From assembly GCA_019186965.1 (NCBI GenBank), contig JABARV010000010.1, forward strand, positions 248,001 to 312,000: 64,000 nt of DNA, read 5' to 3'. The position numbers and the translations under genes are program-made. Below are positions 26,795 through 59,608 of this stretch, piece by piece. How positions within the stretch are numbered: position 1 is the first letter of the stretch; every line of letters starts with the position of its first letter. The DNA is from Turneriella sp. Lineage in GTDB: Bacteria; Spirochaetota; Leptospiria; Turneriellales; Turneriellaceae. The notes under the pieces are model-generated. The model searched no databases, was not told the origin of the DNA, and saw nothing but the letters and a program-made list of their open reading frames with translations.

Positions 26795-26853
26795 AGGAGA
26801 AAGTTAAAAAGCGGGATATGTGGAAAAGTTAATCTGTAAAAGAGGTTGTTTAG

Positions 26854-27064
26854 GTGGGTAGGCCGGAACTCGCGAAGCCAAGATAGAGAGCAAATTTTCC
26901 GCACATTTTGAATTGCGGTTCGTTCAAAAATACGAAATTTTGCACAAATTCGGGCGTCTTCGCCCCTCGCAGAGCAAATCAATAGTGATTTGCGGAGGAA
27001 TTTGTGCAAAATAGCGATTCAAAATGTGCGGAAAATTTGCCCCAGCGAGTTCCGGCCTACCCAC
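26854..27064 (+). repeat. Hairpin repeat element, copy 1
   Basis: Outer arms GTGGGTAGGCCGGAACTCGC (26854-26873) and its exact reverse complement (27045-27064). Inner arms 26890-26913 and 27017-27040 pair over 24 bp. Within them a conserved core holds small hairpins: TTCGT/ACGAA, GGGCG-TCTT-CGCCC, and GCAAATCA-ATAG-TGATTTGC, plus a stem TTTTGCACAAATTC with its complement. TTAG flanks both ends (26850-26853, 27065-27068), a possible target duplication. It fills most of the 325-bp gap between the divergent DUF445 and thrS genes. Copies 2 and 3 share the core. Confidence 0.9.
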
Positions 27065-27119
27065 TTAGGAGGCTTGCGATTTCACTTTATCGCCTGTTTC
27101 GACCCTTAGTTTTGCACAC

Positions 27120-33209: not shown

Positions 33210-33473
33210 AAGAGCCTGTGCGCCAACTCGCTGGAGCAATTTTTTTGAGAATTTTTGTACGCTATTTTGCACAAATTCCCCCGCCAAAGCGGCGTGCAAC
33301 GCCGTGAGGGCGGCGGCGCTTTGGCCGACGGCAAATCGTTGCCGATTTGCTCTGCGAGGGGCGAAGACGCCCAAATTTGTGCAAAATTTCGCACTTTTAA
33401 GCGAACCGCGTACAAAAATTCTCAAAAAAATTGCCTCTTCATAAACACTACACGAGTTGGCGCACAGGCTCTT
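33210..33473 (-). repeat. Hairpin repeat element, copy 2 (core on minus strand)
   Basis: Outer arms AAGAGCCTGTGCGCCAACTC (from 33210) and its complement (to 33473), different from those of copies 1 and 3. Inner arms 33236-33262 and 33408-33434 pair over 27 bp and again differ from copies 1 and 3. The core read on the minus strand is the same family: TTCGC/GCGAA hairpin, GGGCG-TCTT-CGCCC, GCAAATCG-GCAA-CGATTTGC with a GNRA loop, then an additional GC-rich hairpin CCAAAGCG/CGCTTTGG. It fills the 317-bp gap between the divergent PCuAC and 33506 genes. Confidence 0.88.
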
Positions 33474-48275: not shown

Positions 48276-48288
48276 TTTTAAATTGCTA

Positions 48289-48499
48289 GTGGGTAGGCCG
48301 GAACTCGCGAAGCCAAGATAGAGAGCAAATTTTTCGCACATTTTGAAGTACGGTTCGTTCAAAAATACGAAATTTTGCACAAATTCGGGCGTCTTCGCCC
48401 CATGCAGAGCAAATCGGCAACGATTTGCGGAGGAATTTGTGCAAAATAGCGATTCAAAATGTGCGGAAAATTTGGCTCAGCGAGTTCCGGCCTACCCAC
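48289..48499 (+). repeat. Hairpin repeat element, copy 3
   Basis: Nearly identical to copy 1: outer arms GTGGGTAGGCCGGAACTCGC (48289-48308) and complement (48480-48499), same core. In the tetraloop hairpin it has GCAAATCG-GCAA-CGATTTGC, as in copy 2. GCTA occurs directly at both edges (48285-48288 and 48500-48503), a likely 4-bp target-site duplication. It sits between two convergent genes, so it is not a promoter element. Confidence 0.92.
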
Positions 48500-48513
48500 G
48501 CTAGAGGCTCCCT

Positions 48514-50382: not shown

Positions 50383-50438
50383 AAGTTATCTTTAAGAAGG
50401 CAGTCCTGACTTATTAAATAGCGCGGCAAGAGCTATGG

Positions 50439-50456
50439 AGTTGGCGCACAGGCTCC
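50439..50456 (+). repeat. Solo end of the hairpin repeat family
   Basis: GAGTTGGCGCACAGGCTC matches the outer arm of copy 2 (its right end at 33454-33471). Upstream AAATAGCG (near 50416) resembles the core end. No matching left arm is seen, so a remnant or a partial copy. Confidence 0.5.
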
Positions 50457-58590: not shown

Positions 58591-59117
58591 TATGTCACCC
58601 GTGCTTCTGCGGCGATGGCTACGTCAAGTGTTTTCACACTTACCCTCGGCGGCAAGGTCGGACAAATTTTTAGAAAAATTGTAATGTGACATAATACTTT
58701 GCCGATACTTCTATAGGGAAGCCAATTTTCAGAAGAAACAATTGATGCATTCATCACTCCCGTTGTGGGTAGAACTCCTAAGTTCCGCAAACAAATGTCT
58801 GCAATTATAAACGCAATTCTTGCAGCGAGGACACTCAGAATTTCATCTGTTGCGCATGCGATGAAAGCAAATTATGAAACAGCATATCGGCGCATTACGC
58901 GATTCTTAAATGAGTTCGATGATCACGACATGGTTCTGCAGCGTATGCTCTGCGGTAATGTGCCGTTTTTGATTGCTGATCCGACAATCATCGATCGACC
59001 TGAAGCAGAGAAAACAAAATATGTCGGCTTAGTTCGACCTCCCCGCCGAGGCTTCAAAAACTATGGTTTGGCCAAAGATTGTCCGACCTTGCCGCCGAGG
59101 GTAAGTTATTATGTCAC
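58589..59117. repeat. Three copies of the 10-mer ATTATGTCAC around the IS-like remnant
   Basis: ATTATGTCAC at 58589-58598 and at 59108-59117 in direct orientation, and its inverse GTGACATAAT at 58686-58695. The first overlaps the sigma-factor start codon, the third adjoins the right 28-bp terminal repeat. Possible target duplication or regulator site; not resolved. Confidence 0.4.
58638..59106 (+). mobile_element. Internally deleted IS-like element with 28-bp terminal inverted repeats
   Basis: The left terminal repeat 58638-58665 begins ACTTACCCTCGGCGGCAA and has a perfect 28-bp inverse at 59079-59106. Inside is an N-terminal transposase fragment. At 469 bp it is too short to be autonomous. 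The plus-strand part reads through the right end into DCPTLPPR. Confidence 0.75.
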
Positions 59118-59145
59118 ATATTATGAGAGCTATATCTTTATTTAG
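58765..59145 (+). pseudogene. Transposase N-terminal fragment (IS4/IS701-like)
   Basis: 126 codons from GTG. FRKQMSAIINAILAARTLRISSVAHAMKANYETAYRRITRFLNEF, then LIADPTIIDRPEAEKTKYVGLV are typical of the N-terminal half of IS4/IS701-type transposases, whose full length is above 350 aa. After RRGFKNYGLAKD it enters the right terminal repeat. The DDE catalytic part is mostly lost. Confidence 0.7.
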
Positions 59146-59350: not shown

Positions 59351-59608
59351 ATGGTCACACGACGTAACTACACACAAGAAAAAAGGAAGCTAACGAACGC
59401 ATTCCAAAGCCTTCGTCGCTTTCATCGACTGTGCAAAAGGCTAGAAAAGTGGGATTGCTGCGTGAGGATAAAATTTTTGGAATCGATGGTACAAAAATTG
59501 CTCCAGCGAGTTCCGGCCTGGCCACCTGCACAGCCTCGTTATACATCCGCGTTGGTGGCGCTTGACCACTGCCCAAATTCTCCACGGATAATTGCGCGTA
59601 CGCGGTAA
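59351..59608 (+). pseudogene. Truncated gene of unknown function with strong ribosome site
   Basis: AAGGAG (59337-59342) sits 8 nt before the ATG, better than most sites in this window. The N-terminal 40 codons (VTRRNYTQEKRKLTNAFQSLRRFHRL) are basic and helical, then the frame runs into hairpin-element sequence (from about 59485) and antisense to the channel gene. Origin unknown; likely the other half of a decayed restriction/defence module. Confidence 0.35.
59489..59535 (+). repeat. Solo right end of the hairpin repeat family
   Basis: TACAAAAATTGCTCCAGCG followed by AGTTCCGGCCTGGCCACC. The first part matches the inner right arm of copy 2, the second the outer right arm of copies 1 and 3, so it is a hybrid. 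The left half is missing. It lies immediately before the channel-gene stop. Confidence 0.6.

Follow-up and report, generated by a model that had tools for sequence, protein, structure and literature searches.

What kind of element keeps the shape of a long hairpin while the sequence of its stems changes? The question is raised by positions 26854-27064 of the window, which is the whole 64,000-nt stretch of Turneriella DNA that was analysed. The first-pass annotation had proposed three copies with self-complementary arms, and all three were present, with ends refined to 26854-27064, 33212-33471 and 48289-48499.

Copies in the window and range of the family

A covariance model (R1) was built on 44 full-length copies of the family. 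The copies and remnants in the window were as follows.

26850-26853, unstranded: target-site duplication TTAG left of copy 1 (same 4-mer at 27065-27068)
26854-27064, plus strand: copy 1, full-length, 211 bp, type-A ends GTGGGTAGGCCGGAACTCGC (R1 score 219 bits, E 5e-47)
27065-27068, unstranded: target-site duplication TTAG right of copy 1
33212-33471, minus strand: copy 2, 260 bp, type-B ends GAGCCTGTGCGCCAACTCG, fold on the minus strand
48285-48288, unstranded: target-site duplication GCTA left of copy 3 (same 4-mer at 48500-48503)
48289-48499, plus strand: copy 3, full-length type-A, 211 bp, 94% identity to copy 1
48500-48503, unstranded: target-site duplication GCTA right of copy 3
50438-50455, minus strand: solitary type-B arm, decayed remnant (locus L067)
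59493-59525, minus strand: solitary type-A-like arm, GTGGCCAGGCCGGAACTCGC variant (locus L091)

Copy 2 is oriented oppositely to copies 1 and 3, and its P6, the final stem of the core, is enlarged by an additional hairpin of about 48 nt. The sequences flanking copy 2, TAAA and TTAA, are not an exact repeat. The genes beside copy 1 encode a protein with a DUF445 domain and a tRNA synthetase of class II (threonyl-type), those beside copy 2 are SCO1/SenC and one gene without assignment, and those beside copy 3 encode a PfkB kinase and a hydrolase of the alpha/beta type. The adjoining genes varied between copies in several species as well, which is the opposite of the single occurrence beside constant neighbours that the first-pass annotation had named as evidence against its proposal. 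None of the window copies contained a gene call, and their longest stop-free stretches were 55-86 codons.

A separate decayed mobile element was observed at 58638-59119 of the window. Its ends, ATGTGACATAAT and ATTATGTCACAT, lie at 58684 and 59108; it carries nested inverted repeats with CCTCGGCGGC, and its interior reading frame is broken. The ATGTGACATAAT motif was found again beside elements at L063, L078, L104 and L030, in two species.

Searches of the source genome (3.08 Mb, 27 contigs) returned 72 matches with copy 1 and 87 with copy 2, and separate arms accounted for many of these. When relatives were searched with R1, the element was found in six of the seven Turneriella genomes and in none of the 41 genomes outside the genus, among 48 genomes of the class. 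The exact core pattern had a sole match in the GTDB genome collection, the MAG Spirochaetes bacterium SZAS TMP-1, and the viral contigs searched gave no match. Searches of the literature on MITEs with covariation, or on Leptospira or Turneriella repeats, found nothing describing the hairpin family.

Element size was nearly constant despite heavy sequence change, at mostly 209-215 bp. Copies of about 202 bp, present in at least three species, lacked P5 and carried a CCAATAG/CTAATAA-like sequence instead, and P6 was longer by about 50 nt in copies of 249-271 bp. The family spans 202-271 bp, is dispersed over six genomes and contains no transposase gene.

The six-helix fold and its preferred strand

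The fold consists of six helices with 78 pairs. Its parts in copy 1, all on the plus strand, were the following.

26854-26873, plus strand: P1 left arm, 20 bp, terminal inverted repeat (pairs with 27045-27064)
26874-26889, plus strand: one-sided internal loop of about 16 nt, starting with conserved GNAAGC-like nucleotides
26890-26916, plus strand: P2 left arm, 27 bp (pairs with 27014-27040)
26919-26936, plus strand: P3 side hairpin, TTCGT/ACGAA (both-side changes in 4 of 5 pairs)
26937-26951, plus strand: P4 left arm (pairs with 26998-27012)
26952-26965, plus strand: P5 head hairpin GGGCG-TCTT-CGCCC (missing in some members)
26974-26993, plus strand: P6 head hairpin GCAAATC...GATTTGC (98-99% of cells paired in both alignments)
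26998-27012, plus strand: P4 right arm
27014-27040, plus strand: P2 right arm
27045-27064, plus strand: P1 right arm

P4 measured 14-15 bp, and 96-97% of P1 cells were paired. Columns 22 and 24 of the internal loop are unpaired yet conserved in 42 of 44 copies. Elsewhere in the family P3 reads TTCGC/GCGAA, TTTCGCC/GGCGAAA and others. The P5 hairpin GGGCG-TCTT-CGCCC had been called constant, but it also occurs as GGCCG-TCTT-CGGCC, GGCCC-GCCA-GGGCC or GGGCG-GCTTTG-CGCCC, or is missing. The GNRA loop GCAA described earlier was likewise not conserved family-wide.

The P6 extension CGGCCAAAGCGCC...CACGCCGCTTTGGC was near-identical in two species in copies with otherwise strongly different arms (L021-L025 and L006/L007 in the source genome, L190-L192 in G004). 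This suggests that the extension may be an exchanged module or a separate repeat.

In the alignment of the 44 full-length copies (A1), 97.2% of pair cells held standard pairs, compared to 78.3% after shuffling and 32-47% with slid partners, and both-side changes occurred at 44 of the 78 pairs. A held-out alignment comprised 34 matches from held-out loci in four genomes. Here 93.8% of cells were paired and both-side changes were found at 65 pairs; since the rows were aligned by fitting to the model, and a small number of them are partial copies or represent a copy's reverse strand, it is in this respect a weaker test than A1. All six helices, including P3, P5 and P6, showed 88-99% pairing in the held-out copies. 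The compensatory stem changes proposed from three copies therefore hold on 44 copies and on held-out copies.

Close copies differed by 2.95 one-sided against 0.17 two-sided changes per pairwise comparison. As divergence rose, transitions and other types among the two-sided changes numbered 5:0, 45:1 and 111:22. Over all pairwise comparisons, one-sided changes reached a plateau at about 8 of the 78 pairs; the two-sided ones climbed to 29. At least 87 double changes from one Watson-Crick pair to another were counted over 42 pairs, with ancestral states assigned by parsimony on a tree built from the same alignment columns. The earlier claim that structure is kept while sequence changes is thus borne out by covariation that is stronger than in either control, shuffled or slid, and that proceeds step by step along the tree. 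These comparisons indicate that the stems change one side at a time through G.T wobbles, each step being slightly harmful and later compensated.

One strand of the element was preferred. On the strand carrying GGGCG-TCTT-CGCCC, G.T mispairs outnumbered A.C mispairs by 117 to 32 in A1 and by 95 to 25 in the held-out copies. The G.T:A.C ratio was 12:1 (A1) and 10:1 (held-out) for mispair types common to at least three copies, and 24:17 and 22:13 for types seen once. This comparison of single-copy with shared mispairs gave p 0.005 when pooled, p 0.04 for A1 and p 0.13, not significant, for A2 alone. The consensus fold had a value of -124.8 on this strand and -99.8 on the other (a gap of 25 kcal/mol), and 39 of 44 copies folded better on the GGGCG-TCTT-CGCCC strand; the energy comparison scores G.T as pairs and is not independent of the G.T excess.

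Where a Watson-Crick pair changed on one side, the product on internal branches was G.T in 26 cases, A.C in 3 and another mismatch in 7, compared to 39, 24 and 30 on terminal branches. Pair-breaking changes made up 10 of 36 one-sided changes on internal and 54 of 93 on terminal branches. Copies ancestral to others kept a foldable strand, and resident copies lose pairs near the neutral ratio. The terminal ratio of 39:24 still favours G.T, and some constraint may act on resident copies. From the difference between internal and terminal branches in G.T and A.C counts, the single-stranded fold appears to be selected in proliferating copies while resident copies decay.

Insertion and relation to known systems

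Identical 4-mers were found on both sides of 42 of the 72 full-length copies with flanks, and a 5-mer matched in one. With right flanks shuffled, the mean number of 4-mer matches was 1.2 and the maximum 5 in 2000 trials. Furthermore, the type-A copy L003 interrupts a type-B2 arm and is bordered by the duplication GCAT; taking out L003 with one duplication restored the exact B2 arm. The terminal inverted repeats and exact 4-bp target-site duplications therefore identify the family as a MITE-type, non-autonomous transposable element of about 212 bp, and the earlier statement that no known repeat class explains it does not stand. The ends and duplications are MITE-like; what is unusual in MITE terms is the six-helix fold, the single-strand preference and the compensated turnover of stems.

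Except for three uncertain cases, copies lie between predicted genes. In G005, both orientations were present in both chromosome halves. At 69 loci in several genomes, copies tended to directly follow a stop codon and to lie 50-70 bp upstream of the next start, with placement based on gene calls that are simple ORFs. Promoters seem to be spared by insertions.

Two 138-bp copies without P4-P6 differ by one base and carry different 4-bp duplications (CTAC and ATAG). Movement therefore does not strictly depend on a core in cis. G006 contained many 44-bp mini copies (L211-L223, L228-L230) consisting of P1 and a 4-nt loop. The loop matches the NNCA right-hand loop, as though P2-P6 had been deleted between TCGC repeats, and the flanks exceeded shuffled ones both in 4-bp repeats and in mutual complementarity. 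L024, L029 and L017 are hybrids with a type-A end, a type-B end and no duplications; they are probably products of recombination between copies.

No autonomous IS with the same ends was found by end-pattern, PF13751 and PF01609 searches. An intact-looking PF13751 gene at C1:308036 and two DDE_Tnp_1 genes, from a Turneriella-like complete genome and the source genome, were rejected as parents because matching ends were absent. The 2.4-kb interval at L079 was also rejected as a transposase carrier; its content is an adenylate-cyclase-like gene. This gene lies between two type-B arms with TTAG on both sides (L079:811-3177), an arrangement that is probably due to chance and possibly to gene capture.

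Prokaryotic MITEs are short, non-coding and intergenic, with terminal inverted repeats, a duplication of fixed length and a stable predicted stem-loop, all of which the Turneriella family shares (PMC10969869). The family differs from them in its six helices including side hairpins, in its preferred strand, in the compensated turnover even of the terminal repeats, and in that the searches above found no parent IS. To our knowledge, the BOX and RUP elements of Streptococcus pneumoniae have no established sequence relation to the family. They are likewise dispersed structured elements with paired terminal repeats and a modular interior, and a term search of the BOX/RUP paper found compensatory change and covariation unmentioned (PMC3049150).

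REP/RAYT systems are also palindromic mobile repeats with G.T pairs in their stems; REPs measure 20-40 bp and have one end tagged by GTAG or CGTC, and their single-stranded hairpin DNA is bound by the RAYT enzyme (PMC3733652). The Turneriella element, in contrast, measures about 212 bp, has ends GTGACT, GAGCCT or GTGGGT without a tag, and is flanked on both sides by a duplicated variable 4-mer. Hairpin shape matters for IS1272 (IS1182 family) as well (PMC5678879). There, however, the hairpin is the target and is replaced without duplication, whereas in Turneriella the element is itself the hairpin and 4 bp are duplicated, which sets it apart from IS1182/IS1272-type structure replacement. For integron attC sites, the structure of one folded strand outweighs sequence. 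A single-strand fold matters in both, but the family has a target-site duplication, and in place of the attC core sites RYYYAAC/GTTRRRY its P1 carries CGGGAAC, CGCCAAC or CCGGAAC before TCGC. By analogy, the fold and strand preference may be likened to BOX-type repeats or to hairpin-recognised systems (REP/RAYT, attC), although the defining tests run on these gave negative results.

A proposed role of the fold in multiplication

The mobility signature, fold, covariation, strand asymmetry and internal-branch excess of wobble-preserving changes are established for the family. We favour, with some reserve, a genus-wide MITE in which the fold of one strand serves the multiplication of copies and resident copies decay without host function. 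Copies would insert by a 4-bp staggered cut, as made by DDE transposases, and would presumably be moved in trans by an enzyme encoded elsewhere, probably a DDE transposase. One strand would fold into the P1 terminal stem, the P2 long stem, the P3 side hairpin, the P4 inner stem and the P5/P6 head hairpins, and this shape would persist while the stems, terminal repeats included, turn over via G.T wobble intermediates. The folded single strand, as ssDNA or as transcript, would take part in multiplication, so that only foldable copies leave descendants; the fold would then serve proliferation of the element. Resident copies would have no host function and hence decay. The first-pass suggestion of a functional RNA or a single-strand-DNA mobile element stands in that the evidence points to a single-stranded fold and that the element is mobile; RNA and ssDNA are both compatible with the data as the folded strand.

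Alternatively, the resident copies could supply a MITE-borne structured RNA, retained for host benefit, that acts in trans or on neighbour transcripts through processing or termination. The wobbles favoured on one strand, the junction nucleotides that are conserved in 40-44 of 44 copies although unpaired, and the many copies 50-70 bp upstream of start codons agree with this, and BOX and Correia repeats act on transcripts through folded RNA (PMC3049150, PMC10969869). However, orientation showed no bias relative to same-strand neighbour genes, with 17 (+,+) and 15 (-,-) cases, and an RNA acting in cis on these genes was dropped for this reason. Pair-breaking that is common on terminal and rare on internal branches would also be unexpected if each copy were useful. 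In addition, the window had no Rfam match at the gathering score, and relaxed thresholds gave weak sub-threshold matches, none near any gathering score or credible as a known RNA family. We regard a host-useful resident RNA as doubtful, though it is the most serious competitor.

In an ordinary MITE, the terminal repeats would co-vary since the transposase must bind both ends, and the inner fold would be incidental. The repeats and duplications are typical of MITEs, the 138-bp copies manage without the core, and differing tips could track different transposases. P3, P5 and P6, however, are not ends and yet keep pairing in the held-out copies, and equal ends leave the strand-specific wobble preference unexplained, which makes an incidental fold improbable.

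Just as improbable is movement by an IS1182-type transposase that recognises the hairpin by structure, as does IS1272, which targets inverted repeats by shape (PMC5678879). Three type-B copies of about 530 bp in the source genome (L071, L078, L113) hold a C-terminal PF13751 (DDE_Tnp_1_6) fragment between type-B ends. These copies lack a target-site duplication, and because IS1272 inserts into hairpins without duplication, they are possibly hairpin-replacing insertions into a palindrome. The hairpin family itself leaves 4 bp, unlike IS1272, and a PF13751 gene was found in none of the six other genus genomes, five of which contain the element. An IS1182-type parent was rejected on the last point and on the missing duplications of the fragment-bearing copies.

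Long palindromes are known to be corrected by arm-to-arm copying, and the element is dominated by its stems, but template switching or gene conversion changing both sides together is the least credible source of the covariation: two-sided changes are rare in close copies and follow one-sided transitions, where conversion predicts the opposite, so that arm-to-arm copying was rejected as the cause in view of stepwise change, and it also predicts no strand preference, against 26 G.T to 3 A.C among inherited mispairs, and leaves the persistence of the asymmetric loops and side hairpin unaccounted for.

MITEs are usually viewed as decaying DNA in which the hairpin is a by-product of inverted ends. 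In the Turneriella family, the fold of one strand obeys RNA-like compensatory evolution along the whole element, and the tree pattern points to selection on the multiplying copies and not on the resident ones. Strong covariation in a repeat is not in itself proof of a host-useful RNA. A further, tentative proposal is that an element with 4-bp duplications is recognised, wholly or partly, by the shape of one folded strand rather than by end sequence. If so, the terminal inverted repeats would be free to drift so long as they remain paired, and DDE-type insertion would be joined to the structure-based recognition known from attC and REP/RAYT. If confirmed, the family could be used to ask which folded strand transposition needs and whether transposases follow shape.
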